In this document: positions 40,862 to 59,268 of the stretch, piece after piece
Layout of the letters: every line of letters starts with the position of its first letter
Position numbering within the stretch: position 1 is the first letter of the stretch
Source: Onthophagus taurus
Taxonomy: Eukaryota; Arthropoda; Insecta; Coleoptera; Scarabaeidae
Length of the DNA: 64,000 bases
Direction of reading: 5' to 3'
Assembly: GCF_036711975.1 (NCBI RefSeq)
Contig: NC_091976.1
Coordinates: forward strand, 9,424,001 to 9,488,000
Program-made: the position numbers and the translations under genes
Notes under the pieces: model-generated
Database searches by the model: none
Told to the model about the DNA's origin: nothing
What the model saw: only the letters and a program-made list of their open reading frames with translations

Positions 40862-42345
40862 TTTATTATCAGAATGTAAATGGTTTGCGGTCAGAGACTG
40901 CAACATCACTCATTAACTCCTCTACTCTTGGCCACGATATCATCTGCCTTACCGAAACTTCTCTTAATCCGTCGATTGCGGATGGTGAGTTTTTCTGTTC
41001 GAACTATACACTCTTTCGGAGAGATAGATGTTCGACGATGTCACGCAAGACGGACGGTGGCGGTGTTCTGATTGAAGTAAGAAAATGTCTTCGATCGTCG
41101 CCGGCTCCTGTTTTAACTCCTACGCGGAAGATGTGTGGGTGAGCGTTGAGTGCGCGATTGGTCGTGTTTTTGTTTGCTGTGTCTACTTGCCCCCCGGGGA
41201 TCCGGAATCTATTTCGGTCGTTTTACGTAAAGTGTCATCGATTCGCGATGCGTACCCTGATAATTTAATCTTAATTGTTGGTGATTTTAATTTACCCAAT
41301 ATCGTATGGTAACGTTCGGACGATGGGTATTTGGTACCATCTGGTGATCTACGCTCCGGAGAGTTTTTGGCAACGTATCGATATTGTAATTTATTGCAAT
41401 TTAATGATATTAATAATGATAATCTCAAAATTTTAGATCTGATTCTTAGTAGCACAACCTGTATACAGGAAGTTAAATCGTGTCCAGATCCTCTCGTCGG
41501 CCTGGATCGCCATCACCCCGCTGTCGAGTTTCTTATTATCGGCGCTCGACCCAAGGAATTGCGCGATGACCCCACTCTTAAATATTTCTTTAATCGTGTA
41601 GATTACGAGGCATTTAACAACGTCCTTCTAGATCTTAACTGGTCTGATCGACTGGTGGGTCGTAGTGTAGATGATGCAGTTAATGTACTTTATAGTACTA
41701 TTTCCGACCTGGTGATAGGGCTGATTATCTTACATTCATGATTTTACGTAACCGTACCAAAACCTTCATTAAATCGGATTACGATAACTGCATTAAGTCA
41801 ATTCAATCTCAGCTGATTGAGTGTCCGGATCGCTTGTGGTCCTTCGTTAAATATCGGAGGGGCGAATGCGCCGGTATTCCAGCTAGCATGAAGTTCCGTG
41901 GTGTTCATGCCGACAATTCTTAGGATATTTGTTCTTTATTCCCCCTGTATTTTAATTCTGTTTTTTTTATGGTAACCCCTCCGTTCCTTAGTCCCTTTGT
42001 TATGCCCATTGGTGGTTTTGCGCCCTGGTTTGGTGAGGAGGGTGTTTTGCGTGCTTTTAATGAAGTAGATGCGAAGACTGGAGCTATTCCGGATTAACTG
42101 ACTGGTTGTTTTATTAAAAACTGTGCTACCGGTTTAGCAAAGCCCCTATTTCTTTTATTCTCCTTATCCTTACGCTCCGGTGCATTCCCTAGTGAATGGC
42201 GGAGAGCATTTGTATTCCCTGTATTCAAGTCTGGTAACCGTTGCGACGTATCCCAGTATCGCCCTATTTCATGTTTGTCTGTATCTTCAAAAATTTTTGA
42301 AAAAATAATTTACCCTAAATTGTTATATATTCTGAAGCCCTTCAT
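40862..42345 (+). pseudogene. LINE ORF2, 5' part (endonuclease to early RT)
   Basis: QNVNGLRSETATSL, CLTETSLN, DGGGVLIEV, then VGDFNLPNIVW identify an AP-type endonuclease, with frame changes near 41080-41140 and 41310. The linker (41331-41923) includes LDRHHPAVEF and CPDRLWSFVKYRRGE. RT homology begins about 42190 (FPSEWRRAFVFPVFKSG, YRPISCLS, SKIFEKII) and is cut at 42345 by the Polinton. It resumes at 59263. Several stops and frameshifts show that the LINE was dead or has decayed since. Confidence 0.8.
42340..42345. repeat. Polinton 6-bp target duplication, left copy (CTTCAT)
   Basis: CTTCAT stands immediately before the terminal AGTAGTATAG and is repeated immediately after the other terminus at 59263-59268. 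A 6-bp duplication is diagnostic of Polinton integrases. Confidence 0.95.
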
Positions 42346-42947
42346 AGTAGTATAGATTCGCCGATTCAAGAACCTCCTCCTCGAACCTGCGTTCTAGGAG
42401 GAGGTTCTTGAATCGGCAAATTTTTTGGGGGTCAGAGGAGGTTCGATGAGGAGAGGAGGTTCTTGAATCGGCGATTCTTTTGAGGGTCGGAGGAGATTCG
42501 ATGAAGAGAGGAGGAGGTCAATTAACTTGAGAAGGTCATGTTATTTTGACGAAATTATTAAAAATTTATCTTTATTAAAAATGTATCTTTATTTAGGTTA
42601 TGTTATTAAAAATTTATCTTTATATGTAACCTGTTTACCTAGATGAAAACAATTACTATGTTTATCCTTCGACGCTTCTCAATGAACTGTTAATGTTTTC
42701 GATATATCTCTTAATTTATTATTATACACAAAGGTATACGGTTTTGAGATATGTAGGTATACAAATAAGTGAGTCATAACTTACCTGCGAGATATTTTTT
42801 ATTTTATTATGTAAAGGTGTACGGGTATTTAAGAATATGCGAGGAGGTTCTTGAATCGACAAATTTTTTGGGAGGACAGGTTTGAGGAGGAGGTCAACTA
42901 ACTTGTTAGTAGATGAGTCATGATCCACCTGCGAGATATTTTTTAAG
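42346..42947 (+). repeat. Left terminal inverted repeat of element B
   Basis: It matches the reverse complement of 58661-59262. The outer ~340 bp are essentially identical, while the inner part has small indels. Inside, a unit containing gaggaggttcttgaatcggc, aattttttggg, a gaggaggtcaa segment and tgagtcatgatccacctgcg recurs two to three times, so the arm is itself built of tandem modules. Confidence 0.95.
42360..42417. repeat. Near-terminal perfect hairpin, left
   Basis: Two 22-nt arms (42360-42381 and 42396-42417) pair perfectly (gccgattcaagaacctcctc... with its complement) around a 14-nt loop. The same hairpin occurs 14 bp from the other terminus at 59191-59248. Confidence 0.95.
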
Positions 42948-43079
42948 AGCTTCTTAATAAATTTGTCATGCGTTTTGTCTGACGTCTCACGATATAATGA
43001 CATGTTAGAACATGTATAATAGATATATTCGGTAATGATGTAAAATATTACTCCCCCCACCAGCAACCTTATGTATTGC

Positions 43080-43087
43080 TATAAATA
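43080..43087 (+). promoter_or_regulatory. TATA box for the first plus-strand gene
   Basis: TATAAATA lies about 135 bp upstream of the splice donor at 43216. A start site near 43110 would give a leader with no ATG before the donor, consistent with the spliced start codon of the next gene. Confidence 0.6.
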
Positions 43088-43214
43088 CAAACGTTGGTCG
43101 AAGTTGTACCGCAGAGTGTTGTGCTTCAGAGTAAGGTTTTTGTGTATTTAGTACATATTAAAAATATCGTGTAGATTTTTGGTGCATTTAGTACAGAGGA
43201 TTTTTAACGTAACG

Positions 43215-44179
43215 AGTAAGTAATTCAAATGTAATACAAGTAGATAATGTACTAATGTAAACAATAATATTGATGTTTAGTGGCAACCAGACCGAACCCC
43301 AAATGTCCAACTAAGAGAGCTGCTGTAAATTCATTTGAAAAGGGTGAAAATAAAAAACCTGCCCGAAACATCAAAATGGAGGGTAATTGTAATGAGACAA
43401 CTGCAACAAATGTGTCGCTAGGAAGTGATAATCAAAGAAAAAAGGATGTGGTATTCGATGGAATTAATTTGTTGCCTTCCGACTTAGCGGAGTACGTATT
43501 TCCTAGCAATCAACAACATTATGTAGAAAATTGTGGAAAGTTACCTTTCACAAGTAACGTAGTATTAAATGAAGCAGTGAAAAATAATCTCCAAAAAGGT
43601 AATCAAGCGCCATTATTCTCCGAGAGTACATATTATTTAAATAAAAGTCGAACGAAATGGATATCGGTTGGCATGTCTGCCAATCTACATTTTGATCCGG
43701 TTATAAGATTAATGGGAAAAGGACAATGCATAACTTTTACCGAAGACGAATGGAAAAATGTGATTAATAGCAGACAATTGATTATGAATAGTTTTGTTGG
43801 TGATTTATCGACACCACCACATTTCGTTGTAAGCGGCGTGACCTGCAGCAGCCAATGGATAGAAAATGTACGAAAAGTGTTGAAAATGGAAAGGGGGTCA
43901 GAAATATTTTACCTGGCTTACGACTCGTTACACGAATTGTGGAAACTTAGCGATTTAGTTTCGAGTAGGGTAGAAGTATTAAAGTGTATGGAATATAAAA
44001 ATTATTACGATAGCGTGATCGATGTGGTATCAACAATGCAAGGTGATATAAAATCGAATATATTGGTTGCTTCAAACGGTGCACCAAGTGAACATTTGTG
44101 CGTAACTAAAGAACTGCTCGTATACGGTATGGATAAGATATTACTGGATTTAGATTTGCACGCATTAATGAAGATGTGA
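43215..44179 (+). CDS. 299-aa accessory protein with splice-created start codon
   Basis: The frame 43281-44179 has no ATG at its natural start. A 65-nt intron (43216-43280: GTAAGT, branch-like TACTAAT at 43250, TTTAG) joins an A at 43215 to TG at 43281 and so creates the initiator, followed by ATRPNPK. The product has a basic N-terminal tail (residues 1-35), then LLPSDLAEYVFPSN, and a strand-helix unit WISVGMS...VIRL...TEDEWKNVIN resembling the 213-aa protein of element A (2785-3426). The pattern is compatible with a PC4-like DNA-binding fold, but I would not assign a function. An internal ATG at 43375 is the fallback start. Confidence 0.65.
43216..43280 (+). other. 65-nt spliceosomal intron
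   Basis: It has a consensus GTAAGT donor, TACTAAT branch-type sequence 24 nt before the acceptor, and a TTTAG end. Several short ATG frames occur inside it (for example at 43229 and 43272), so unspliced RNA would not translate the main frame well. Confidence 0.7.
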
Positions 44180-44189
44180 AGTGAATAAA

Positions 44190-44414
44190 ATGGAAAAAAA
44201 AGTGACGTTTTGCGAATCGAAAAATAGAGTGTACCGAATGCACACTTGGACGTTTGCTTACAGACAATCAAGGATAAGTGACTGGGAAGAAAAGATGTTG
44301 GACGGAATTAGATTTAAGACTAGGATAAGAAACGTAAATAAGTTATTAGAAAAATATTTAGATGTAGATTATAGATTAAATATATATCAAGAACGTTTTA
44401 GCATTGTAGAGTAA
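44190..44414 (+). CDS. PPP1R15-like eIF2alpha phosphatase recruiter
   Basis: I choose ATG 44190, giving 74 residues. An RVxF PP1-docking motif (KVTF, residues 4-7) is followed by a VY pair, an Arg and W20, in the order of the RVxF-phi-phi-R-W string of PPP1R15 proteins. Then comes AYRQSRISDWEEKMLDGIRF with KTRI, matching the family's W-E-E-x3-D-x2-R-F-x2-R-I helix that contacts eIF2alpha and G-actin. Cellular PPP1R15 and some viral homologues bring PP1 to phosphorylated eIF2alpha and relieve translational arrest. A comparable anti-shutoff role is inferred here. There is no counterpart in element A. It lies 10 nt after the preceding gene. Confidence 0.75.
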   Translation: MEKKVTFCESKNRVYRMHTWTFAYRQSRISDWEEKMLDGIRFKTRIRNVNKLLEKYLDVDYRLNIYQERFSIVE

Positions 44415-44629
44415 TCGAAATGTTTTTAACTGAGTAACAATTAATTTTTAGGATATTAGTAGATTTAAGTGTAGCTGAATAATAATAATATTAATAGATT
44501 TAAGTATAAATTAAGAGCAAAACTGTTTTTGTAAAATATTTAAAAGGAATAAAAGCTTAAAGCACAACAGCAGAGCTTCATTTCTAGTTTTTAACTGTGA
44601 AGAAAAGGAAGAAGGAGTGAAATTATAAA

Positions 44630-45547
44630 ATGAATTTGTTAGAACCTAATCGTAACAGTTATCGTTTGACAGGCAAACGAATTGGTCGAGGATTTTTTAA
44701 CAAGTTGATAGATAAACTTCCGATAGAACTTCATTTGCCAGGATATAATTTTTGTGGACCGGGTACCAAGTTGGAAAAGAGATTATCGAGAGGAGATCGA
44801 GGCGTGAATCCATTAGACGAAGCGTGTAAGAAACACGATATAGCATATACGGTCAGTTCAAATTTAAAATTTAGACACGACGCAGACAGAGCATTATATA
44901 AAGCAGCGAAAGAACGAATACGAAATAAAGAGTCTACTCTTGGAGAAAAAGTGGCATCGTCCGCAGTTGCCGCCTTAATGAAAGCAAAAGTAGCGGTCGG
45001 TATGGGCGTAGGTAGAAAAAGAAATCGTACGGGTCGACGACCTTTAAAAAAAGTCCGAACGCGTGTAAAGCGTGGTGGAGCTATATCTTTTGTAGATGCA
45101 CTTCGATTCGCTCGCAACGCAATATCAAGATCAGGTGCTAAGAATTTGTTGACAAACGTTAAAGCGGCGTACGGAGCTTTGAAAAAGATAAGAAAAAGAA
45201 TTTCCGAACCTAGAGGTCGAGTTATTCGAATTCCGAAAACGGGAGGATTTTTACCTTTAATTCCCCTGTTCGCAGCTTTAGGTGCCCTAGGTAGTATCGG
45301 CGGTGGTGCTGCCGCTATTGCAAGAACTATAAACAACGCGAAAACAGCTAGAGAGCAATTAGATGAAGAACGAAGACATAACAAGGCTATGGAAGCAAAG
45401 GCCGTAGGTAGCGGATTTTATATAAAACCATATAAGAAAGGTTGCGGTTTGTTTATTGAAGGAAAGGGGAATAATGTTGGCGGCACAGGTTACTTCAATA
45501 AGCCCTATAAGAAAGGTTGCGGTATAACCACTAGTTCAAAAAACTAG
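44630..45547 (+). CDS. PLA2-domain minor virion protein of element B
   Basis: A 305-residue protein. The parvovirus-type phospholipase A2 core is at residues 35-75: YNFCGPG calcium loop and CKKHDIAY with the catalytic His-Asp. A basic linker follows, then a Gly/Ala-rich hydrophobic segment (about 203-230) that could insert in membranes, and two copies of a KPYKKGCG motif at the C-terminus. It is expected to assist endosomal escape. A TATA-like tatttaaaagg lies near 44535. The last codons are AAA AAC TAG, forming an A AAA AAC slippery site that gives access to the downstream protease frame. Confidence 0.85.
   Translation: MNLLEPNRNSYRLTGKRIGRGFFNKLIDKLPIELHLPGYNFCGPGTKLEKRLSRGDRGVNPLDEACKKHDIAYTVSSNLKFRHDADRALYKAAKERIRNKESTLGEKVASSAVAALMKAKVAVGMGVGRKRNRTGRRPLKKVRTRVKRGGAISFVDALRFARNAISRSGAKNLLTNVKAAYGALKKIRKRISEPRGRVIRIPKTGGFLPLIPLFAALGALGSIGGGAAAIARTINNAKTAREQLDEERRHNKAMEAKAVGSGFYIKPYKKGCGLFIEGKGNNVGGTGYFNKPYKKGCGITTSSKN
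45538..45544 (+). promoter_or_regulatory. Candidate -1 ribosomal frameshift heptamer A AAA AAC
   Basis: The heptamer is in the correct phase (AAA AAC in the PLA2 frame) and directly precedes TAG at 45545-45547. A -1 shift enters the protease frame. An imperfect stem (ctcg 45557-45560 with cgag 45579-45582, and cgtt/aacg inside) begins 12 nt downstream. The same heptamer occurs at the matching place in element A (6664-6658). Confidence 0.7.
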
Positions 45548-45924
45548 TTCGAATACCTCGTCGTGCGTTAACTAACGTCGAGTTGGAAAAGTTTGCGAAA
45601 GTACTAAAAATTCCACATTTTCGGGGTATATTTATGAGAGACAATCTCCCGAGTAAGATTAAAAAGAAGGAAAGAGGTATTGTTAACTTGGATAACTTGA
45701 AAGGACGAGGGACTCATTGGGTCGCCTATAAGAAAGACGACAAAGACATATACTATTTCGACAGTTACGGTGATTTAAGACCGCCATTAGAAATTGAACA
45801 ATATTTGCTGTCAGACGGTAGGGGTGGTCAAGTAAAGTATAATTACTGTCGATATCAAAGAGAAATAGATCAAAATTGCGGACAGTTGTGTCTGAAGTTT
45901 CTAAGTAATAAAAGAACCTATTAG
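45544..45924 (+). CDS. Adenain-like cysteine protease of element B
   Basis: The triad is visible as GTHWVAY (His), YFDSYGD (Asp) and QNCGQLC (Cys), with an upstream LKIPHFRGIFMRD segment typical of the family's N-terminus. Conserved residues (LVRIPRRALTN) extend to within a few codons of the PLA2 stop, with no ATG before the internal Met at about 45633, which would cut into the domain. I therefore infer production as a PLA2-protease fusion by -1 frameshifting, perhaps followed by self-cleavage. Adenovirus-type proteases mature capsid precursors in the nucleus. Confidence 0.8.
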   Translation, partial: LVRIPRRALTNVELEKFAKVLKIPHFRGIFMRDNLPSKIKKKERGIVNLDNLKGRGTHWVAYKKDDKDIYYFDSYGDLRPPLEIEQYLLSDGRGGQVKYNYCRYQREIDQNCGQLCLKFLSNKRTY

Positions 45925-45954
45925 AGTCTAGAGAAGTTTAGACGTTCAGAAGTA

Positions 45955-46686
45955 ATGGAGAAAGAAGCAATACACACGACATATACATTTACGTTGACTG
46001 GAAAGTCATCTGAATTGACTTGTAATTTTAATCCTCCGATCTATTTGAACGAATTTGGTAGTTACGAGTTGGCTCTTTTGAATTTCGAAACGTTTAATAG
46101 TTTAGCAAACGTTAATAAAAACAACAACGTAATCCAATACGAAGATAAGACAGGACATTTTAAAAACAATATAATAGTACCTGTTGGAACGTACGATATT
46201 GATGATATTGCCGAGTTCGTGAATGAACAGCTAGACAAAAGACACGCTAAAAGTGTCGTAATAAGGATTAAGGGGAATAATAACACACAACATTCTTTAA
46301 TAAAAAGTACCCGTCGAATTAATTTTGCATGCGATAATTCTATAGGGCCGTTACTTGGCTTCAAGCCTCAAATATTACCTAGAGATACGGAAGTGGAATC
46401 CGATTTCGTAGTAAACATAAATAAAACGAACGCCTTACAAATTTATTGTAATTTAGTGACGGGATCGTATAATAACGGAGTTCCCGTGCACGTTTTATAT
46501 CATTTTTTCCCAAACGTTCCGGCAGGTTTTAAAATAATCGAATCACCACAACTACCTATTTATTTACCGGTTTTAACGAACGTGATTAGTAGCTTAACAG
46601 TACGTATACTTGATCAGGACGGAAACTTGGTAGACTTCAGAGAAGAAGAAATAACAGTGAGAGTTCACCTGAGATCGATAAATTGA
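45955..46686 (+). CDS. Minor capsid (penton-like, single jelly-roll) protein of element B
   Basis: A 243-residue protein from ATG 45955. It shares with element A (5499-6278) the N-terminal TFTLTG, GSYELALLNFETFNSL, the VPVGTYDIDDI motif, a central GPLLGF/SILGF motif and a C-terminal IYLPV...VRILDQDGNLVDFREEE. Length and position next to the major capsid gene fit the Polinton penton protein. It starts 31 nt after the protease stop. Confidence 0.8.
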   Translation: MEKEAIHTTYTFTLTGKSSELTCNFNPPIYLNEFGSYELALLNFETFNSLANVNKNNNVIQYEDKTGHFKNNIIVPVGTYDIDDIAEFVNEQLDKRHAKSVVIRIKGNNNTQHSLIKSTRRINFACDNSIGPLLGFKPQILPRDTEVESDFVVNINKTNALQIYCNLVTGSYNNGVPVHVLYHFFPNVPAGFKIIESPQLPIYLPVLTNVISSLTVRILDQDGNLVDFREEEITVRVHLRSIN

Positions 46687-46709
46687 ATTATTTAAATTTG
46701 ACTAACGTT

Positions 46710-46901
46710 ATGACAGTGTTATATCAAAACAAAAGAACGCGGTGGTCAAGAAGAGACAGAGCGAGAAAATTGTTTAATGGAGAAAACTATAAAGCGCGCG
46801 TCATCAGTCAACGTAGCGGCAGTAGAAGACGATCCATTCATCGATTATCACCAGTCAATCGAAGGTATTTAGTTCAGTTAGGATACGAAGTGTTAAAGTA
46901 A
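46710..46901 (+). CDS. Small basic protein of element B
   Basis: Start at ATG 46710 (MTVLYQNKRTRW), ~63 residues, highly rich in Arg. It ends NRRYLVQLGYEVLK, matching the element A homologue at 5293-5499. Its TAA overlaps the capsid ATG (46899-46903, TAATG). A DNA-binding core or packaging role is inferred from charge and position only. Confidence 0.65.
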   Translation: MTVLYQNKRTRWSRRDRARKLFNGENYKARVISQRSGSRRRSIHRLSPVNRRYLVQLGYEVLK

Positions 46902-48160
46902 TGGACATTTTAAAAGTAACGGATAAGATAAAAACAGATCACTCTATCGTAAGTTATGAATTCCATTCGCATCAACCGTTTGGATCGACCACGTTCGATA
47001 ACAATGACGAAATTAGAATTTCAATTCCGGAAATAGATAATTATACTTTACCGAGCGAGAGTTACCTATACGTCGAGGGTAGCGTTCGTAAGTTAGCCGC
47101 GGACGGAAGTATAACAAAAGATGCCAGCGCAACGGGGCAATTGGTTAACAATCCCGTTGCATTTATGTTTAGCGATATTCGATATCTTATTAACGGAGTA
47201 CATGTTGATGGTGTGCGGAACGTCGGTATAAGCTCATGCATGAAGGGTTATTTCTCATCTACGCAGAACGAGGTGGTGAAATTAGAGAACGCCGGTTGGC
47301 ACATAAAACCTTGGAAAGATGATATAGCGGGTGTTTCAAAGGCTTTAGATAAAAATGGAAATTTCGGTCTTAGCGTTCCGCTAAAAACGTTGCTAGGATT
47401 CGCAGAAGATTTCAGAAAGATCATGATGAACGTTCGACAGGAACTTGTGCTAATTCGCGGACACGATGATACGGACGTCATCTTTCAACCAGCAGCCGCT
47501 CCGAACGACGAAAAATTGAAATTGATCATTAATAAAATTATATGGAGAGTTCCTCACGTTGCGGTGGGATTACGCGAACAGTTGGCATTAACAAAACTAT
47601 CAGAAAGAAACGTAGACATTCACGTTCCTTTTCGATCGTGGGAAATACACGAGTACCCTCAATTACCTCAAACTACGAAGCAATCTTGGGCCGTCAAAAC
47701 TGCTCCACAATTGGAAACGCCTAGATTTATAATCATCGGATTTCAAACAAATCGAAAGGGTATATTTAAAGGAAACATGGCATTATTTGATAATATAAAC
47801 TTAACGAACGTAACGGTTTTCTTGAATGGAGAACGTTTTCCGTACGATAATTTGAATGTGGATTTTGATAACAATCACTATGCGATTTTGTATGATATGT
47901 ATTCAAGATTTCAGCAAGCATACTACTATCAAGAAAGCGAACCTTTGTTTTCACCGGAAGAATTTAAAACTTACGCGCCGTTAATTGGAATCGATTGCAC
48001 GTATCAACAGGAAGCAATACATAAAAGCGGAGTAGAAATAAAAATCGAGTATTCAACGAAAAATCCAATTCCGGAAGGTACGACAGCTTACGCATTAATT
48101 CTGCATGACAGAGCATTTGTGTATTCGCCTCTTACGAAAATGGTTAAGCAATTAATATAG
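46901..48160 (+). CDS. Major capsid protein (double jelly-roll) of element B
   Basis: A 419-residue protein starting at the ATG that overlaps the previous stop. Segments shared with element A include VPFRSWEIHEYPQL, FQTNRKG, LFDNINL, FPYDNLNVDF and a C-terminal AYALILHDRAFVYSPL. In the adintovirus/Polinton group this is the hexon-like trimeric double jelly-roll capsomer. No frame break is visible. Confidence 0.85.
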   Translation: MDILKVTDKIKTDHSIVSYEFHSHQPFGSTTFDNNDEIRISIPEIDNYTLPSESYLYVEGSVRKLAADGSITKDASATGQLVNNPVAFMFSDIRYLINGVHVDGVRNVGISSCMKGYFSSTQNEVVKLENAGWHIKPWKDDIAGVSKALDKNGNFGLSVPLKTLLGFAEDFRKIMMNVRQELVLIRGHDDTDVIFQPAAAPNDEKLKLIINKIIWRVPHVAVGLREQLALTKLSERNVDIHVPFRSWEIHEYPQLPQTTKQSWAVKTAPQLETPRFIIIGFQTNRKGIFKGNMALFDNINLTNVTVFLNGERFPYDNLNVDFDNNHYAILYDMYSRFQQAYYYQESEPLFSPEEFKTYAPLIGIDCTYQQEAIHKSGVEIKIEYSTKNPIPEGTTAYALILHDRAFVYSPLTKMVKQLI

Positions 48161-48233
48161 TGGTACTGTTGAAGCAACGTCATTTAGTGTATCTCTAAAC
48201 ATCGAAGGAAACGTTTGCATATAGTGGTATATT

Positions 48234-48713
48234 ATGGATATTATGGTTTTTCAAAGGGATTTTATTATTTTGGACATTCAAGGTTTCACGATAAACGATG
48301 AAGAATTTATCCCAAAGGAACTGGCTTCTTACGACAGTAATCATTGTATAAGTCATTACGTGTTTCAACCTAGTCGAAGCTTTTCTTCACTATCTACCAA
48401 ATTTCGCAATACGGCGAATTGGTTAATGAGTCATCATCATTGTATTGATTGGAACGACGGGTTTGTTCCTGCGTCTCGTTTCGATGAGATCGTTTATTAT
48501 TTGTGTCGTTCGACAAAAGTAGCGTACGTAAAAGGACGTGAGAAAGCTACATTTTTAAGAAGAATTTTAACAATACCGGTAAAAGAATTGCCGGAAAATG
48601 AATGCAAATTGGAGGTTGGTGCGCCGATGTGTCCCTATCATAAAAAGAGACCAAGTATGTGCTCCTTATCGAATGTTTTTTATTTATTTTCATACGTATT
48701 CAGACATCTATAA
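48234..48713 (+). CDS. 159-aa DIQGF-family protein
   Basis: The counterpart of the element A protein at 3577-4089, in the same place after the major capsid gene. Shared features in order: an ILDIQGF strand, FxPKEL/FEVKEF, a SRSFSSL/ASIPFQQL segment, HHH, a KVAYVKGREKATFL/QIFVKGNQKKQFL block, and a C-terminal CPYHKKRPSMCSLSNV Cys/His cluster before a hydrophobic tail. The family is unassigned. Conservation across two very divergent elements argues for a core function. Confidence 0.65.
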   Translation: MDIMVFQRDFIILDIQGFTINDEEFIPKELASYDSNHCISHYVFQPSRSFSSLSTKFRNTANWLMSHHHCIDWNDGFVPASRFDEIVYYLCRSTKVAYVKGREKATFLRRILTIPVKELPENECKLEVGAPMCPYHKKRPSMCSLSNVFYLFSYVFRHL

Positions 48714-48769
48714 CTATATGTAAACGAATTGAGAAAGGCAGACGGGTAGTAGCGGTAGAGCAGTTCAAG

Positions 48770-49102
48770 ATGGAACGTCTTTGGCGGTTAGTTACCAGAT
48801 TGGGACTTTCAACTTTTATAATTAATAAAGTGTGGGATATTATGGAAAGATACGAATCTGATTTATCTTTTGCGAATATTAAAAACTACGAATTATGTTA
48901 TTTACCAATCGATTATTATATCAATAAAGTAAAGCCATTAGATTTGGCGGCGGTTTGGTTTAAATTACCGTTGAAGTATAGAAACGATGAGCGATTACAA
49001 AGCAAGCTGCCCTGTTTTGAACATTATAATTTGCCTCATTGGGAAACGCATATTGATGGTCCACCATCGGCAAGAAAGGATTGTTCTTTATGTATGGTTT
49101 AG
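48770..49102 (+). CDS. 111-aa unknown protein of element B
   Basis: I prefer ATG 48770 (MERLWRLVTRLGL) because residues before it run over the end of the preceding gene. It is mostly helical by composition, with LDLAAVWFKLPLKY in the middle and a C-terminal KDCSLCMV CxxC. No counterpart was found in element A, and I recognise no family. Confidence 0.5.
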   Translation: MERLWRLVTRLGLSTFIINKVWDIMERYESDLSFANIKNYELCYLPIDYYINKVKPLDLAAVWFKLPLKYRNDERLQSKLPCFEHYNLPHWETHIDGPPSARKDCSLCMV

Positions 49103-49267
49103 TATATAAACATTGTCAGTTATAGATTGTAAATTAATAATAATAAAAGATTGTAAAAAGTGTAAAAAGTTGTTTTAATTTAAAAGAAAAAATAGTTAAT
49201 GTAAATGAATACATGGTATGTATACATTGGGTTGGGTTGGTATGACTTGGGTTGTACATTGAAAAAG

Positions 49268-49330
49268 TATTAAATTGGAAGAAAAAAAGGAAGAAAGAAA
49301 GGGGAAAAAAAGGAAGAAAAAAGGAAGAAA

Positions 49331-49361
<31 letters not shown>

Positions 49362-49385
49362 GAAAAGAAAAAGGGAAAAGGATTG
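49268..49385 (+). repeat. Purine-only low-complexity tract
   Basis: About 118 bases of A and G only, including a long A run (49326-49349). It marks the left edge of an accessory region with no counterpart in element A. Open frames across it are composition artefacts. Confidence 0.9.
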
Positions 49386-49488
49386 TTTATTGAAGCTCCT
49401 CCTATGCTCCTCCCATGCTCCTCCTCAGGCTCCTCCCAAAGTGGAGATGGAAGAGTGGGGATGGGAGTGGGGGAAATCTAAAATTCTG

Positions 49489-49761
49489 GTAAGTATAGTC
49501 TCCTTTCTTGACATATATTGTTTTTAATCTTGTGTTTTTCATTCCTATAGCTCCTTCTATTTTTTCAAGTTAACTTTTATTGGTAAGCATAACTTTATTT
49601 TTTCGAACGTTTTATCATTCATATCCTATCATTCAGCACTTTGTTGACAAGCACCCTCTGCAGTTAGATTTTAACGTGCAACTGTATTTTTCATCAAGCG
49701 ATGTAAGTATACATGTTTTTTTTATTAAAATAAAATTAATTAATTTTCTTTTCTTATCAAG
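49489..49761 (+). promoter_or_regulatory. Leader with up to three short candidate introns
   Basis: Candidate introns are 49489-49550 (GTAAGT...CCTATAG), 49583-49663 (GTAAGC...CTGCAG) and 49703-49761 (GTAAGT...TTATCAAG). The last acceptor lies immediately before the ATG of the 325-aa gene. The series suggests a multi-exon 5' leader. Which splices are used cannot be told from sequence. Confidence 0.5.
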
Positions 49762-50739
49762 ATGTCTCAAGACGGTTTTAGTCAAATTGATTTAACTGCT
49801 CCGGGTTTCGCCAGCCAGGAATCCTTTCTGTTAAACAGTTTTGACATAAACCTGTTGAACATGTCGACTGTTGAGAAGGCTCTGGATCCAAACGTGCAGC
49901 CTAATGAGCAGCCGATGGATCCAAACGTTGAATCTAATGTGCAGCAAGCTACGGCGCTTCCAAACATCGCAGGTTCCTCGAAAGTCGACGATAAGAATGT
50001 GAAACACCTTTCACTTTCACTTCGTCGAAAGTCGGGGAACCGTGAACACCGGAAGAAGGGTGCAGGTGTGTGGTTACCGCCAGATAAGTATAGAGAGCTT
50101 CGACGGGAGACCCGTGCTCGTTCGCGAAGTACCAAACACAAGCGTGTGTCAGTTGAACCTGCGACTCTGTCAAAGGTTGAAGTGACACACTCGGAAGTGG
50201 CTAGCGGCGATGAGTCCAACGACTCTCTTTCTTTAATGGCGGTATCCCAACACTGCACCGAAAACCGGACATACCTTAAAGCTATTAATGCAGCTTTTGT
50301 TTCTAAGGCTTCTTCTTCTAAAGCTTCGTCGATTCCCACTCCCCCTACTAACATAAACATTCCTACCATAGAAGTTCCCTCATTAAGCCCGAAAGTACAA
50401 ATCTTAAGGGTGGACACAATTCCCGCTACTTCAGTCATTTCCGATGTACCTGCCAGCCTTTTTTCAAATGCAATGTGTGCAGCAGTAGAAACAACCAAAG
50501 AGGAGATTTTGACCGAAATTAATATTTTGTATCAAAATTTTTATAAAGACCTTCATGCAAAGGTACTTCAATTGCAGACCTCTTTGAGAGAACTTGCACA
50601 GTTTAGGGAAGGGCTGGCGTCGAGTTCTAACCACTCTTTAACAACGTCACTCGACATCACCGTTGCAACATTAACCGTTGAAATGAAAAAAGCAGAATTC
50701 ATTTTGTCTTCTTTACATACTAATAACTTCCCTTCCTAG
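49762..50739 (+). CDS. 325-aa accessory protein, largely disordered with C-terminal coiled coil
   Basis: ATG 49762 follows a splice-acceptor-like TTATCAAG. The N-terminus repeats DPNVQPNEQPMDPNVE-type acidic/polar sequence. A basic, possibly nuclear-targeting segment (REHRKKGAGVWLPPDKYREL...RARSRSTKHKR) sits at about 92-130. A Ser/Pro-rich linker follows and the last ~90 residues are helical (TKEEILTEINILYQNF...LQTSLRELAQF). The layout recalls phosphoprotein-like or scaffold proteins, without a recognisable family. No homologue is seen in element A. Flanking low-complexity tracts suggest acquired cargo. Confidence 0.55.
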   Translation: MSQDGFSQIDLTAPGFASQESFLLNSFDINLLNMSTVEKALDPNVQPNEQPMDPNVESNVQQATALPNIAGSSKVDDKNVKHLSLSLRRKSGNREHRKKGAGVWLPPDKYRELRRETRARSRSTKHKRVSVEPATLSKVEVTHSEVASGDESNDSLSLMAVSQHCTENRTYLKAINAAFVSKASSSKASSIPTPPTNINIPTIEVPSLSPKVQILRVDTIPATSVISDVPASLFSNAMCAAVETTKEEILTEINILYQNFYKDLHAKVLQLQTSLRELAQFREGLASSSNHSLTTSLDITVATLTVEMKKAEFILSSLHTNNFPS

Positions 50740-50748
50740 CTAAAAAAG

Positions 50749-51060
50749 ATGTCCGGTAGCAACAACTTCGGGAGGGTGCTCACGTTGGAGCGAAGAGTTG
50801 CGTCTTTGGAGGTCAAAGTAGATACCCTGTTTCAGCTGGTAGGCTATATCTATAATCTTTTTTGCACGTTTTTAATTTCATAATCTTCTTAGGTAAACAG
50901 TATTGTCTCAGAGTCGGCAGTGGTGAGAGGGCAGGTGCATGTTCAAAACATGCACATACACCATTGTTCGACTGGGATAGAACCTCCGACACCGACACCT
51001 GCAGCGCCTCCGCCCCCGTATGAAGTGCGGGATGAACAGGAAGAGGAGGAGGAGTGGTAA
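50749..51060 (+). CDS. Spliced 85-aa coiled-coil protein with PPPPY late-domain motif
   Basis: Two exons, 50749-50838 and 50893-51060, separated by a 54-nt intron (GTAGGC...TTCTTAG). Unspliced reading stops 14 codons into the intron. Exon 1 encodes a short coiled coil (LERRVASLEVKVDTLFQL). Exon 2 continues it, then has a Pro-rich stretch ending PPPPYEV and an acidic tail EEEEEW. PPxY motifs recruit Nedd4-family ubiquitin ligases and ESCRT for budding or trafficking. Such a motif also occurs in some non-enveloped capsids. It starts 9 nt after the previous stop. Function inferred. Confidence 0.55.
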
Positions 51061-51079
51061 CCATTTTTCCTCCTCTTCC

Positions 51080-51102
51080 TTAGGTTAGGTTAGGTTAGGT
51101 TA
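51080..51102 (+). repeat. (TTAGG)4 insect-telomere-type tract
   Basis: Four perfect TTAGG units plus TTA, followed by a degenerate unit. They lie between the PPPPY gene and the ATPase gene and are followed by ATT/CTT microsatellites to about 51165. It marks the right edge of the accessory region. Confidence 0.9.
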
Positions 51103-51241
51103 TGTTAGGTTAAATGGTTAAGGTATTATACTTATTTTTATTATTATTATTATTATTATTCTTCTTCTTAAATATATGTATATATAGTTTCTTTTGCTAT
51201 ATTTTCATTCAGTCTTATCCAATTCATTTAGTACGAGAATC

Positions 51242-51946
51242 ATGATCGACGAGAAATTAAAATGTTTACCGCAACTTCTAACACTGCCTATAGTAAATTT
51301 TAGTAATGGTTCGGTCGAAGAACACTTTACAAGACACAGCAATTTATTTGGTGGAAAATGTAAGCGAGGTTTAATTGTAGGACCCTCAGGTGTCGGAAAA
51401 ACAAATGCTATGTTATCGCTTTTAGTTGCACGTAATGGGTTGCGCTTCCTAAACTTGTACTTATGCTCTAATTCGTTATACCAAAATAAGTACGATTTTT
51501 TAAGACGTTTAATTGAACCTATAAAAGATTGCGGTTACTATGAATTTTCTAATATAGACGAGTTCATTCGACCGGAAGATGCGAAAGAATATTCGGTAGT
51601 CGTATTTGACGATGTTTCCTGTACAGGTCAAAATGTCATTAAGGAATTTTTTTCGTATGGTCGACATAAAAACATTGATTGTTTTCTAATTTGTCAAAGT
51701 TATAGTGCAATTCCAAAACAATTAGTTCGCGATAATTGTAACTTTTTGGTGTTATTTAAACAAGACTTAACAAATTTAAAACACGTATTTGAAGATCACA
51801 TAATGAGCGATATGGAGTTTCATCGGCTAAAGGAAATTAGCGATGCTTGTTGGGAGAATAGACACGGCATCCTAGTTATTGATTTAGATTGTAGTGTATC
51901 TAAGGGACGTTACCGTAAGGGTTTTGATAAATTCATTGAAGTTTAA
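51242..51946 (+). CDS. Packaging ATPase (FtsK/HerA-type) of element B
   Basis: Start chosen at ATG 51242 (MIDEKLKCLPQ), 234 residues. Walker A GPSGVGKT at about 47-54, Walker B VVVFDDV at about 118-124, then a sensor-like CQSYSAIPKQLVRDNCNFLVLFKQD block. It matches the broken element A gene (7585-8255). It is the genome-packaging motor typical of Polintons and related double jelly-roll viruses. The frame is intact. Confidence 0.9.
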   Translation: MIDEKLKCLPQLLTLPIVNFSNGSVEEHFTRHSNLFGGKCKRGLIVGPSGVGKTNAMLSLLVARNGLRFLNLYLCSNSLYQNKYDFLRRLIEPIKDCGYYEFSNIDEFIRPEDAKEYSVVVFDDVSCTGQNVIKEFFSYGRHKNIDCFLICQSYSAIPKQLVRDNCNFLVLFKQDLTNLKHVFEDHIMSDMEFHRLKEISDACWENRHGILVIDLDCSVSKGRYRKGFDKFIEV

Positions 51947-51997
51947 AACTAACGACTTCAGCTGTACAGTTCGTAGTAACTTCACATACATCATACA

Positions 51998-53161
51998 ATG
52001 AACAAGACGATAGCTGCAGAACTTATCGCGGCACGAGAAGTCGTGAGAGACAAAATTCGTTCTTTAAAAGAAGACTTAGAGGAGTCAAGGATTCGGTCGG
52101 AAACCGCATATGCACCCATCGCAAGGCCCTTACAGGATATTGTCGCAAAACTTGACACTGCGCCTTTACTATCCATTCCAAAACGAAGTTTATCTCCAAA
52201 AGAAGAAAAATTGATATCTAAGATACAACGCTACTCGCCGGATATTTCTGACGTACCAGCTAAAACCGAGACCGAATATTTTATTCGAAAACCGAAAGTT
52301 CCATTAAAAGAACAACGACGAAAATTTGCTACATCGACTCCTGAAAAAAGGTTGGTATCTTCTCCCACGTCTTCTCCTCTTGGTCCATTAGCTCATGCAG
52401 AAGAAGAAGTATATGAAGTTCCGCCGGGCGAAGAAGAAGAACTCCTCGATTCTAGCGAGGATACCGGAGCTCTTATTTCGGACGCACATAATCGAATAGA
52501 ACGACTTAAAGATGAAATAGAAGAAAGATTGGAGTCTCCAGAGGTACAAGCCGCTTTGAGTCAGTTTCATCCTTTGCCCAGAACGTATATTGTTGGTTTA
52601 ACAACTGATTTAAAAGATGATTATGATCGTTTATACGGTGTTCGCGAAACTCCCGAAGGTTTCTACATTGGAGTCAGTCCTGTTCACTTTGAGGATCAGG
52701 ATATTCACGTTGGAAACTTCAAATATACGGGAACCGTTGGTTTATATGATTTACTATTTAAAAACGAACCGGGCAAATTTACAATTCAGGACATGCGCAA
52801 CTACAAAGATATCTTACTACGTTCAAATGCTCCGTACATTAATTACATTCCAGAGGCAGGTATGACTACTGAGGACGACAGTGGGAAATTTCAGAATATT
52901 ATCAAGCCTATCGTTGAAGGTAACAAACCCAAGGTGCATTGGGCTAAATACTGGCCGAATCCGAAGAAAAAAGTCGGTGGTGCATTACAAAAACAAGTCG
53001 TTCCTGGGGCTCTTATCGAATACGAGTATTGGGACGATCCCAACGAACTTGTCGACAGACTGCGTTTGTTGATGGCCTCGCAAACTGCAGGTCATTCTGC
53101 ACATGTCAATGAAATATCATCAATAATATCGGAGCTAACAGAGGCCGAGATTATACGTTAA
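51998..53161 (+). CDS. DUF8207-like conserved Polinton protein of element B
   Basis: A 387-residue protein. A coiled N-terminal region (KIRSLKEDLEESRIRSE) and an acidic middle (VPPGEEEELLDSSED) precede the conserved C-terminal half: YDRLYGVRETPEGFYIG, LYDLLFKNEPGKFT, IEYEYWDDPNELVDRLRLLMASQ and AHVNEISSIISEL. The latter matches element A (8293-9243). Function unknown. It is fixed between the ATPase and fibre genes. Confidence 0.7.
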   Translation: MNKTIAAELIAAREVVRDKIRSLKEDLEESRIRSETAYAPIARPLQDIVAKLDTAPLLSIPKRSLSPKEEKLISKIQRYSPDISDVPAKTETEYFIRKPKVPLKEQRRKFATSTPEKRLVSSPTSSPLGPLAHAEEEVYEVPPGEEEELLDSSEDTGALISDAHNRIERLKDEIEERLESPEVQAALSQFHPLPRTYIVGLTTDLKDDYDRLYGVRETPEGFYIGVSPVHFEDQDIHVGNFKYTGTVGLYDLLFKNEPGKFTIQDMRNYKDILLRSNAPYINYIPEAGMTTEDDSGKFQNIIKPIVEGNKPKVHWAKYWPNPKKKVGGALQKQVVPGALIEYEYWDDPNELVDRLRLLMASQTAGHSAHVNEISSIISELTEAEIIR

Positions 53162-53230
53162 AATATTATCATAAATATACGTCTCTCACATTTTTTGTTT
53201 TAAAACACCGACGTTTGTGAACTAGAGCAG

Positions 53231-53656
53231 ATGAGTTTAAGCAAGTTCGGAAAACATTCGTCTAGTATGACGATCGATAAGTTTGGTAAACACGTACACG
53301 GACACAACATTGCTGCTCATTTTAATAAACGTGAAAACTTACAACGATATTTCAAACAACCAACTATACTTACGTTTAGCGGAGATGGAACTACGGATAC
53401 AACGGATAATTATTACATTATTCAAAATTTAGGTTACGTAAGTAAATATATAAACTTTTTATATATTGGTGAAATAGTGAAATACCGATTTGAAGGAGAC
53501 GTTGAAATGATTATTAACGGGAGTATCTTCGATCCAAATAAAAAGTTAAATGTTCTCTTCTTTGGAGATAAAATAGTTTGCAAACCCACAACGAAGACCA
53601 CTTTACTCAAGAAACCATTTATGGTAGAACTGCTCATTGAAATATCCAGAAAATGA
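53231..53656 (+). CDS. Fibre-position protein with duplicated KFGKH tail peptide
   Basis: A 141-residue protein. The first 25 residues hold two copies of a short peptide (SKFGKH and TIDKFGKH), matching SIDKFGR at the N-terminus of the element A fibre (9272-9898). The rest differs completely: no coiled coil, but a beta-rich domain (YYIIQNLGYVSKYINFLYIG, VEMIINGSIFDP) that could be a compact head. Position between the DUF8207-like gene and integrase, and the shared tail, suggest a capsid-anchored receptor-binding protein with a different distal module. The stop overlaps the integrase ATG (ATGA). Confidence 0.55.
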   Translation: MSLSKFGKHSSSMTIDKFGKHVHGHNIAAHFNKRENLQRYFKQPTILTFSGDGTTDTTDNYYIIQNLGYVSKYINFLYIGEIVKYRFEGDVEMIINGSIFDPNKKLNVLFFGDKIVCKPTTKTTLLKKPFMVELLIEISRK

Positions 53657-54588
53657 GCGATATTAAAAGGTCCGTCGTAAACGAGTTGCACGCGTCCGCG
53701 AGGAAAAAGTATAAACGCAGACGTGTTATTATAAAAGGTTTAACGGACTTATTTCAAGCTGATTTAGTGGAGATGATACCTTATTCAAAAGCAAATGGTA
53801 ATTTTAAATATATTCTAACAGTTATTAATGCTTTCTCAAAGTATGGATGGGCTGTACCACTAAAAAACAAAACTGGCAAAGAAGTTACGCGAGCTATGGA
53901 AACAATTCTATCGGAAAAGCGGAAAAACATACCGAAGAATCTGCAAACGGATAACGGAAAAGAATTTTACAATGAGGATTTTAAAAAGCTCATGTCACGA
54001 TATCACATCAATCACTACAGTTCATTTTCCAATTTAAAGAGTTCTATTGTTGAACGGTTTAATAGAACAATAAAAGAAAAAATGTGGAAAGAATTTAGTA
54101 TGCAAGGTAACTATCGTTGGTTGGAATTGCTTCCCAAATTAATTCTGGATTATAACAACCAAGTTCACAGGACGATAGGAATGAAACCTAGCGAGGTAAA
54201 TAACAGAAACGCATCGACACTGTTAAAAACTGTATATAATTACATAAAAATTGTCGATCCTTATACCAAAAAATTTAATGTCGGTGATCACGTCAGAGTG
54301 AGCAAGCATCGACACGCCTTCACCAAAAACTATACTCCCAATTGGTCTAACGAAGTGTTTACAATACATTCTGTTCGTAATACTTTCCCAACAACATATC
54401 TGCTCAAAGATGCATCCAATGAAAAAATTATGGGTGGTTTTTATCGAGAGGAATTACAAAAAGTTAAATATCCTGACGTCTACTTGGTGGAAAAAGTGCT
54501 ACGGCGAAAAGGAAATCAAGTGTTTGTGAAATGGTTAGGATTAGGTCCGTCTCATAATTCTTGGATCTCAAAAACTAACGTTCTTTAA
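53653..54588 (+). CDS. Retroviral-type integrase with chromodomain, element B
   Basis: A 311-residue protein with catalytic D37 (QADLVEM), D100 (QTDNGKEF) and E134 (SSIVERFNRT). The region VHRTIGMKPSEVN and a beta-rich DNA-binding segment follow, then a C-terminal chromodomain (DVYLVEKVLRRKGNQVFVKW, SHNSWISKTNVL). Its product is consistent with the observed 6-bp CTTCAT duplication. It converges on PolB, with a ~100-bp gap. Confidence 0.95.
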   Translation: MSDIKRSVVNELHASARKKYKRRRVIIKGLTDLFQADLVEMIPYSKANGNFKYILTVINAFSKYGWAVPLKNKTGKEVTRAMETILSEKRKNIPKNLQTDNGKEFYNEDFKKLMSRYHINHYSSFSNLKSSIVERFNRTIKEKMWKEFSMQGNYRWLELLPKLILDYNNQVHRTIGMKPSEVNNRNASTLLKTVYNYIKIVDPYTKKFNVGDHVRVSKHRHAFTKNYTPNWSNEVFTIHSVRNTFPTTYLLKDASNEKIMGGFYREELQKVKYPDVYLVEKVLRRKGNQVFVKWLGLGPSHNSWISKTNVL

Positions 54589-54691
54589 AACGTATAAAGA
54601 CCTATTTAAAAGTTTACAAGACTTTATTAACAATCGAACATTACAAATACATTATTATTATTATTCTTTACAATTTTTTTTTAAATTAAAT

Positions 54692-57600
54692 TCATTTATT
54701 CGCATTCAATCTTTTTATCAACCAATGACCCCACGCCAAAGTATTACATCCGTTCGGTAATATGTATCGTTTATCATCGCACGATGAAAGAGCAATTTTA
54801 TTCTTTAATTCGGTATACATAGTATGAAATTCTGACTTAAAAATGTACATTTTTTTATGAACCGATCCGCCACATTCAACCACACGTTTATAATCGGTCA
54901 CGCTTAAATGTTTATCTATAACATATTTCTTTACTCCTTTAGCCTTCTTTACATTATCATTCAACAAGGTGATGCAGTACGCCTTAGCTCCTGTTCCAAC
55001 AAATGACGTTATGCACCTGTTTGGATATTCATCTTTCATTCTTCCCAACACAGATCGACCGCGAGGTATATTGTGTATATTCTCTAACGGATAATTGGAC
55101 GTGTCAAAAAATTCAATATTTTCTTTTATATCCTCATATACATTGGGAGTAGTAATTTCTAGGATTAGGGAATCAGTATCGGTGTATAAAAGTGTTATGT
55201 TATTTCCATATTTAAGTTTTAAGTAATCATAGAAGAAGCTGTACATTACGGTTTTCGAAAGCTCTAATATACTGAAACCCACATACAGCGGTTTGCAATA
55301 ACGAACTTCCGCGACGTTCAATTGAACGGCTATCAAATTATCGCAAAATATTTTCGAAGATTTAAAATTTGGTTTAGCTATTAGGGCTTCCACGCCCGGT
55401 TTCTTATGACGACATTCCCAGTGGGTAACTAGTCTTATATCCACTCGCTTTTCCACATTTTCCATTGTCTTACCGTATACGATGTTATTCATTGCTTTGT
55501 AATGATTTTTTTCAAATTCATTCTTAGCTTTCGCACGTTTATCGGAATTGAAATCGATGTAGCTCCGCATCCAGTTGGATTGTTTAAATTCTAATACTCT
55601 GTAAATCTTCGTTAGTTTCAATCCGAACTTGATACACTGCTTTAGATTCACGTAATGAATGATGTATTTTGTTTTATTTTCCAAATTTGCTATTAACTTT
55701 GCATTTTTTGAACCTGGGGGTACAATCCGTTCTGGACAAAATGGCAAATCGTTGTGTTCATCATGTATTGCTTCCGGATACTCTAAATCTACCTCGAACA
55801 CGTAACCCTTTTCGGAATCGTCTTCCGTATTGTAAATATCTAACTTTTGAATCTCTTCATCTGATAGCCATCGAAATCCCCCCGTCGGTAATTTTCGTCT
55901 CATTGCGTGTCCATACAAATTCGTAGCGTCGAGATACAAAATATAAGATGGGTCTTTGGTTTCATCAAATTCCATCATTAATTTATTGTTAGCCTTCGCA
56001 CTGCGTTTAGTGCACATACTTAATCCACCGCGAATACCATTTTTAAAGAAGTGTAACATGTCTATGTCCGTTAATAATTCTAATTTTACCCCTGTCATTC
56101 GTAATAATGCATCCCAACCGAAGCCCGGCGCTGTGAAGTAATGACATGGATCTAAAGAGTAATACTTCATCGAGATGGTTCGGAAATTCTCAAATACGTC
56201 CGCCAAAAGTAAAACGTCAGACGTTAAATAAATGTCGCTATATTCGCCTAAAGTGCGACAGTTAAATAAGTTCCACACCGTTTGTGCACGACAATAATTT
56301 TCTTCGGTTATACTATCGTCGCATAAAGTATTGTAAAAACTACTTCGATCTGGCAGAGCGGTAAGATTCAGCTTTTCGAATGAATCCACAAAGGAATACG
56401 GAAAAACTCCTTTCTGACGTATAAGTCGAAACTGTTCTTCGTTCCTAAAATATTTTCTGATTTGAACGCATTGGTTGTCTTCCAAAAATGAACCCAACTT
56501 CTCTAGCGATAAAGCCATAAACCTAAATGAATCCACAAATCTCAATTTCATATGAACCCGCCTTAGCTTTCCCTTGCTGTCAATGTTTTCTCCTACGATA
56601 ATTTTTTTCGAAAATGATATATACTTTTCTTTATTCTGTGCTATAACGTCCACGTCTTCTTCTTTTAATGCCATATCTTTCACAAACATATGACAATCGT
56701 AGTTCGAAAGATTGTGAAAGAATATCGGTATGAACTTTGGTAATTGATAATTGATGTTACATACAGCATGTGCGGGTCCTCTATACAACCCAGTTAGGTG
56801 ATCATGATCGCACACTTTATTACCTTCTTTTATTTTGTGCGAACAAATGTGACAGATATCCTGCATCTCATGTATTAATCTATCAATAGGTGGTAATGGG
56901 AGCATTTCTTTTGGTTGGCTTAAATAATTTTTGTATATATTCAGAACGTCATGTTCCAACTTGCTCATGAAAATTTGAGCAGCATTACATCCGCGATATA
57001 TTTCAAACTTCGACAATGATTCGTCATATGAACATTTTATATAATATGCAAATGCATAAGGTTCGTGTTTGAAACATTTGACGGAGTATGAATTATCATC
57101 GTTAAGTTCTGTTGCTTCCGCATCGGCGATCGGTTTCTGTAATGCTTCAAAATCTGCATACACCACGAACGGTATTTTTAATTGTCGTTCAAAATTTTCG
57201 AACTGTAGTATATTTTCCTTTTCTTCATTTCCATATTTATTTATTTTCAAATTTGTTGTTGGTAAAATTGCCCTTACCTTGCTGCAATCGTCACTTTGAT
57301 GACGGATAAGTTTATTTTCTGACGTAAAGAATACCAAGCATCCGTCGCAAATATACTTTTCATGACCATTCTGCGATGCTTGCGATGATAGTAATCGAGA
57401 CAGATTTTTTATCCAACAATAGTGACTATTCCCGGAATCATTTGTAACCAATAATAAATTTATATGTCTTTCTTCTTTTTGTCGACATATATACATTGTA
57501 ATTATGTCATAATTCATAACACCGTCTTTAAAATACTCATTTATTCCATATACATTAATAGATAGTTTGTTCTGCTTTTCAAATACAGGTATATCTCGTA

Positions 57601-58484: not shown

Positions 58485-58660
58485 TTTACAATTTAATGTT
58501 GTACACTTCTACTTGTTATGAAAGAACTACGTCAATACCACATTTCGCAGGCGTTTATAAACCCTCACCGCTCCTGAAACTTATTGGGGAGGAGGAGGAT
58601 GCATCGAGTGCGTTTGTATACATGTATATTTATAACTCCGTATACCTCTGCATAATAAAT

Positions 58661-59262: not shown

Positions 59263-59268
59263 CTTCAT
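59263..59268. repeat. Polinton 6-bp target duplication, right copy (CTTCAT)
   Basis: Identical to 42340-42345. Removing the element and one copy restores continuity of the LINE RT region. Confidence 0.95.

Follow-up and report, generated by a model that had tools for sequence, protein, structure and literature searches.

The window analysed here, a stretch of 64,000 nucleotides of the Onthophagus taurus genome, contains a mobile element of 16,917 bp (42346..59262) of which both ends could be located. The left terminal inverted repeat (TIR; 42346..42720, plus strand) has a 375-nt core that is 99% complementary to the 375-nt core of the right one (58888..59262, minus strand). Weaker similarity continues to 42912 on the left and begins at 58698 on the right. 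The element is flanked by a perfect 6-bp target-site duplication, CTTCAT, with its left copy at 42340..42345 (plus strand) and its right copy at 59263-59268. On the plus strand, it encodes a double jelly-roll major capsid protein (46901..48160; DJR-like_dom, E 3.6e-101), a packaging-type ATPase (51194..51946; Pox_A32, E 1.1e-8) and a retroviral-type integrase with a chromodomain-like end (53653..54588; E 4.4e-12 for rve and, slightly under the cut-off, 3.9e-5 for Chromo). The integrase, ATPase, capsid gene, inverted repeats and target duplication are our grounds for naming the element a Polinton, and the gene described below lies inside it, as a preliminary description of this DNA had claimed.

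Several further ORFs belong to the element. A 305-aa ORF (44630..45547, plus strand) has a phospholipase A2-like domain (Phospholip_A2_4, E 1.2e-12). It is followed by a possible adenovirus-type protease ORF (45583..45924, plus strand), whose Peptidase_C5 match is below the cut-off (E 0.15) and for which the PDB and PHROGs gave no support. A 243-aa ORF (45955..46686, plus strand) has relatives in elements B (69%) and D (37%) of the same genome and is presumably a minor capsid or penton protein. The minus strand carries a 1053-aa ORF (54692..57853) with an Endonuclease_7-like domain (E 2.3e-5) and zinc-finger-like matches. From a YTDTDSLIL-type motif we take it to be the protein-primed DNA polymerase B; searches of Pfam, PHROGs and the PDB returned no PolB match for it. 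Outside the Polinton, a 506-aa pogo/jerky-type transposase ORF (DDE_1, HTH_Tnp_Tc5, CENP-B_N) is located at 38094-39614.

Just downstream of a 299-aa ORF without a Pfam match (43280..44179, plus strand), the window contains an ORF of 74 residues at 44190..44414 on the plus strand, where the preliminary description had placed it, with its ATG at 44190 and its TAA at 44412-44414. The ORF starts 10 bases past the stop of the 299-aa ORF, and the two may perhaps be translated together. An AATAAA is found at 44548, between the 74-residue ORF and the phospholipase A2-like ORF. The 299-aa ORF itself shows 50-52% identity over about 200 residues among three related elements, A, B and C, of which A is the element of the window.

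The 74-residue protein carries the motifs that had been claimed for it. KVTF, an RVxF-type protein phosphatase 1 (PP1)-docking motif, occupies residues 4-7 (codons 44199..44210, plus strand) and is followed by a V-Y pair at 14-15, Arg 16 and Trp 20. A second Arg/Trp pair, at residues 28 and 32, has the spacing of PPP1R15. The stretch R-x3-W-x9-F-x3-I from R28 to I46 (44271..44327, plus strand) is spaced as R658, W662, F672 and I676 of PPP1R15B, with R28 as the counterpart of R658, the Arg four residues ahead of the Trp (W-4). The helix pattern W-E-E-x3-D-x2-R-F-x2-R-I is likewise present, at residues 32-46. Further on, L53-EKY-L57 (44346..44360, plus strand) aligns without a gap to L57 and L61 of the LSAVL motif of DP71L from African swine fever virus (ASFV). 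V14, Y15 and M17 are candidate counterparts of the phi-phi residues (Y650 and I652 of PPP1R15B), whose identity is uncertain because the position of the gap differs between alignments. Since only three residues precede KVTF, the protein has no H1 helix upstream.

Taken singly, the window protein matches PPP1R15 at a borderline level. Its top Pfam match is PF10488 (PP1c_bdg; model positions 170-228), at 17.6 bits and E 0.0033 against a gathering score of 26.1 bits. In the PDB, it had three weak matches at E up to 10 (E 0.099-0.4), two to PPP1R15B and one to ASFV DP71L. A search of PHROGs gave no phage family, with matches at E 0.04-0.06 only. The same assembly encodes divergent relatives, which we group into types A to G, type A being that of the window, and PF10488 is the top Pfam match for all seven type cores. 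The E-values are 5.9e-5 for B, 2.4e-4 for C, 2.6e-6 for D, 6.7e-6 for E, 0.013 for F and 0.014 for the G core. Two of the seven types, D (27.7 bits) and E (26.4 bits), score above the cut-off, and the remaining ones score below it (A as given above, B 23.3, C 21.3, F 15.6 and G core 15.5 bits). The full-length G protein (250 aa) matches VirE1 first (E 0.045), ahead of PF10488 (E 0.12).

Because types D and E had been found via PF10488, we made a separate profile from types A, B and C, whose members were gathered by similarity to A without use of PF10488. All five PDB matches of this profile at E up to 10 are PPP1R15 proteins, namely PPP1R15B (two), DP71L and PPP1R15A (two), with E-values between 2.7e-5 and 0.23, four of them below 0.01. 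The two top matches span the W-helix half only (profile positions 25-66 and 26-56), and a match over the whole core was obtained with PPP1R15A (E 0.0017). With a profile of types A to E, seven of eight PDB matches were PPP1R15 cores of known structure (best E 1.6e-11). With the D-G profile, the top six of 11 matches were PPP1R15B, DP71L or PPP1R15A (best E 1.7e-11, for DP71L), and the other five had E-values of at least 1.7. An hhalign comparison of the A-B-C alignment with an alignment of two D sequences and one E sequence gave a probability of 93.6 and an E-value of 2.2e-7. The D-G profile gave 32.5 bits for A, 28.0 bits for C and 23.0 bits for B; shuffled versions of A, B and C, 30,000 in all, reached 17.4 bits at most. 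Of the window's 595 stop-to-stop frames of at least 40 codons, this ORF alone reaches the top 20 entries for this profile.

The single sequence is thus borderline and the profiles of its relatives are significant, and we therefore consider the resemblance real. The match to a PPP1R15 profile that the preliminary description had called for is obtained once the relatives are included, and the single window protein stays under the Pfam cut-off. As judged by these comparisons, the window ORF is a true PPP1R15 homologue and not a chance look-alike.

The relatives in the host assembly (291 Mb) comprise the at least seven divergent types A to G and two further, damaged ones (H and I). The PF10488 search and searches with types D and E yielded types D, E, F and G. 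At least 47 full-length identical copies of the window protein are present, the window's included, along with further diverged copies, at least 63 rows of type B (50-53% identical to A) and at least one of type C (48%). Besides the window's copy, there are at least 46 protein-identical A copies; the 19 of them that were retrieved as loci share 97.9-99.7% identity with it over about 3.2 kb (one in two parts), and the expansion of A therefore looks young. The elements as such are clearly distinct, their capsid proteins being 70% identical between A and B, 70% between A and C, and 36% between A and D.

The PF10488 search of the assembly (E up to 1) returned 84 places, all of which were assigned to element sequence types by their coordinates and, for C15:5757491, by reading the locus, with a location inside an element established for the loci that were read. 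By hand count, these are 60 B, 12 E, 7 D (one damaged), 2 A and 1 C, together with one B frame joined to the preceding ORF (L037) and one 'I'. A cellular PPP1R15 gene was not found in the host assembly with PF10488, where introns or divergence could hide one. A 305-aa frame at C8:20676187 was considered as the host PPP1R15 gene and rejected, as it is a damaged copy of type D. The 44-Mb contig 1 also holds a COX1-type mitochondrial frame (L055, C1:21446788-21448128), which is a nuclear copy or an assembly artefact; its 527 codons are open under the invertebrate mitochondrial code, and its 13 AGA/AGG codons would be stops under the vertebrate code, which excludes the latter and agrees with an invertebrate host. 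Matches to telomere repeats, two overlapping ones at a single place, were uninformative about the host.

The gene is arranged differently among the types. In A, B and C, it has the 299-aa-type ORF on one side and the phospholipase ORF on the other. In D, it comes behind the capsid gene and an ORF of 271 aa, and the core is fused in frame to a domain of about 160 residues; the resulting 222-aa ORF is intact in six of the seven D loci read and damaged in the seventh (L044). Type G has the same fusion. In the window's element, a homologue of this domain (about 30%) is encoded at 48234..48713 on the plus strand. The domain, which is fused behind the core in D and G (L031:4989-5657, L053:492-1244) and free in the window (48234-48713), opens with an IQGF-like motif, carries C-x2-H-x6-C towards its end and has no Pfam match. 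Type E adjoins an ORF of the endonuclease VII/polymerase type and, in one of the loci read, an integrase. Type F adjoins an integrase and lies wholly within an inverted repeat of 955 nt and 99.5% identity (L048:774-1728, L049:448-1401), which gives two copies per element. The core is thus placed alone beside capsid genes (A-C), joined to a conserved domain of the element (D, G) or in a more terminal position (E, F), and these differing positions fit several captures or moves.

The searches also yielded a number of side observations on these loci. Besides the type F gene in its inverted repeat, several more inverted pairs of matches, about 8.6 kb apart, were seen in the searches with types D and E. 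For type E, a stretch of the initial ~26 residues is repeated in inverted orientation about 14.4 kb off (for example C10:2907707 and C10:2893337), as though the gene extended at one end into a terminal repeat. A further PPP1R15-like type is located behind a capsid gene on the minus strand (L046, about 4890-5080; C15:5757491), with a stop codon just ahead of the conserved Trp region.

We then compared the residues of the seven types, using one representative per type. The Trp, the Asp six residues past it, the RF pair and the Arg and Ile are kept in all seven representatives, as is the pattern W-x9-F-x3-I. The Val of RVxF is also present in 7/7 and the Phe in 6/7, the exception being type B with KVRI. 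The persistence of the RVxF and helix residues in related elements, on which the preliminary description had staked its reading, is thus seen for W, RF, RI and the RVxF Val and fails for the Phe in type B. KVRI is found in all type B copies read (L030, L037, L038) and in P0003, and since 58 of the 63 listed type B rows have one common score, most of them probably carry KVRI too. In type G, neither of the two positions preceding the RVxF Val is basic. Types A, B and C alone have an Arg at W-4, where D, E, F and G carry E, N, S and D, respectively. Across the sequences compared, the putative actin/eIF2α half of the core is the best kept, and the PP1-docking half varies among types. This variation is the main point against the simple reading for B and D-G, and less so for the window protein. 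The missing upstream H1 helix is a second such point, and it applies to the window protein as well.

Within groups, pN/pS was 0.31/0.76 for A-B, 0.33/0.74 for A-C 0.30/0.63 for B-C, 0.35/0.73 for D-G and 0.33/0.69 for E-F, pN being about half of pS. Between-group values are uninformative (C-E 0.49/0.57, B-E 0.56/0.67), with many dS saturated. Two near-identical D copies gave a dN/dS of 1.28 from very few changes.

Outside the host assembly, a viral contig collection yielded no confirmed relative for P0001, for the window capsid protein or for alignments A1, A5 and A6, the last of which is made of capsid proteins. A protein collection gave one match for A, three for alignment A1 (P0003, which is type B, P0002, which is part of A, and P0004) and none for alignment A5. 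P0004 (45 aa) shares no more than 49-50% identity with any sequence listed from this genome and therefore probably comes from another organism; its longest contig has 1180 bases, and it has no Pfam match at E up to 1. PPP1R15-like cores in other species are thereby hinted at.

The window protein shares with PPP1R15A (GADD34) and PPP1R15B (CReP) a core of about 70 residues in which the RVxF motif, the Trp and the D-x2-R-F-x2-R-I helix follow in the same order. The distance from the RVxF Val to the Trp is 27 residues in the window protein, 26 in PPP1R15A (V556, W582) and 21 in PPP1R15B, so that the window protein has six residues more than PPP1R15B between the two. Unlike these cellular proteins, it is encoded in a mobile element and lacks the long N-terminal region, and hence the upstream substrate-binding helices. 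An eIF2α-binding motif of GADD34 and its viral orthologues was reportedly described by Rojas et al. in 2015.

According to passages of PMC5429092, the RVxF mutation V556E abolished measurable PP1 binding of human PPP1R15A, F592A weakened actin binding, and W582A removed the selectivity for eIF2α-P. Mutation of R658, W662, F672 and I676 of PPP1R15B, or of their PPP1R15A counterparts, is described in sections of PMC4394352 as weakening the actin-stimulated dephosphorylation of eIF2α-P in vitro; in cells, changes of the R and W of PPP1R15A were harmful, whereas the F and I mutants behaved like wild type. The same sections report that the 70-residue C-terminal core of PPP1R15A or PPP1R15B alone sufficed to damp the stress response. 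Helix H1 of PPP1R15B (424-429) is reported in part of PMC7615683 to be essential for substrate capture and conserved in viral members. We did not take H1 as defining, because it is outside the matched PF10488 stretch and core-only fragments are active.

Among viral proteins, ASFV DP71L (PDB 9nb9) is similar in being nearly core only, its short form having 70-72 aa, and in having the RVxF motif, R-x3-W, RF and the two LSAVL leucines at the same spacing as the window protein. In contrast, it comes from a large cytoplasmic virus, has low identity to the window protein, and has a shorter link past RVxF and more residues ahead of it. Excerpts of PMC5346070 state that F18 of DP71L, the equivalent of the RVxF Phe, is critical for PP1 binding, and that L57 and L61 matter most in the LSAVL motif, where mutation lowered function. 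PPP1R15-type genes have also been described in insect dsDNA viruses, namely baculoviruses (for example granulovirus coGV-gp036) and entomopoxviruses (portions of PMC4394352, PMC4411684 and PMC5704228). They differ in their reported lepidopteran origin and are likened to the window gene by description alone; none of them was among the matches of our sequence searches. ICP34.5 of herpes simplex virus 1 (HSV-1) is a viral PPP1R15 orthologue whose gene reportedly maps in inverted repeats, as does type F. It belongs to a herpesvirus and is likewise compared with the window protein by description alone. HSV-1 ICP34.5 has further domains.

The homology of the core, its position inside a two-ended element and the occurrence of at least seven divergent types of it in one genome are features of the sequences themselves. 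From them, we consider it quite probable that the window gene is a minimal PPP1R15 (GADD34/CReP) core used by the Polinton as an accessory gene, which would recruit PP1 to eIF2α. The most likely function of the window protein would be to recruit PP1, together with G-actin, for dephosphorylation of eIF2α. We then propose a mechanistic model, in which the N-terminal strand with KVTF would dock on host PP1, the stretch up to R28 and W32 would run along the PP1 surface and line PP1 up, and the helix W32-L57 would bind G-actin and eIF2. PP1 would then strip the phosphate from eIF2α, and translation could continue while the element makes its capsids. The benefit would arise in a virus-like phase during which eIF2α kinases are active. 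In invertebrates, these kinases are PERK and GCN2.

It is unlikely, though it deserves some weight, that the protein is a PP1 adaptor derived from PPP1R15 and now aimed at another substrate, such as a viral structural protein, a host antiviral factor or a chromatin factor. Types D-G lack the Arg that forms a salt bridge with PP1, D and G are fused to a domain that is a separate protein in the window's element, and type A has no counterpart of H1 upstream of the core, all of which would suit such an adaptor. On the other hand, the Trp and Phe, which in passages of PMC5429092 serve eIF2α selectivity and actin binding, are kept in 7/7 types, and it is the docking residues that vary more. In yet another reading, the protein would bind actin or eIF2α and little PP1, and would serve either as a decoy or in assembly linked to actin. 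This reading draws on the KVRI of the type B copies read and on the W-F-I helix as the best-kept part, but the RVxF Phe is present in six of the seven representatives, the window's included, and we regard it as improbable.

If a short basic ORF merely happened to look like a PP1 cofactor, the weak scores of the single sequence would be accounted for. However, the best shuffle reached 17.4 bits against 32.5 bits for the window protein, seven divergent types agree with one another, and the profile built without PF10488 matches PPP1R15 proteins only. Chance resemblance is contradicted by the matches of the A-B-C profile and by the shuffle test and was rejected; we give it hardly any credence. Recruitment of PP1 to eIF2α by a minimal PPP1R15 core remains our preferred reading.

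Viral PPP1R15 proteins are already known, including those of insect viruses, and their occurrence in a Polinton appears unreported. The authors of the preliminary description knew of no such report, and our searches of open-licence PubMed Central full text turned up none on a PPP1R15-type gene in Polintons. Searches there for Polinton, adintovirus or Maverick together with PPP1R15, GADD34 or eIF2 found no report; the adintovirus description of Starrett et al. is outside this scope. The word 'phosphatase' is absent from PMC11071296, PMC8363768 and PMC11071308, and the protein phosphatase 1 passages of PMC5704228 deal with genes of baculoviruses and with a bracovirus.

It has long been asked if the Polintons of animals are viruses or mere transposons, and Maverick particles have not been observed, according to the abstract of PMC8097293. 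A gene family that undoes translational arrest suits something that needs a burst of protein synthesis against the defences of the cell. By analogy, a GADD34-like gene suggests that such elements live, or have lived, as infectious viruses, and the presence of one in a Polinton makes the virus-or-transposon question testable. We hold it evenly balanced whether PPP1R15 cores form a recurrent class of accessory genes in invertebrate Polintons, acquired through several captures or moves, in which case translational arrest would have imposed strong and repeated selection and the elements would have an infectious phase. Herpesviruses and ASFV carry GADD34-related proteins that sustain protein synthesis in the host. 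If our reading is true, a mobile element would join the carriers of PPP1R15 cores, alongside herpesviruses, ASFV, baculoviruses and entomopoxviruses.
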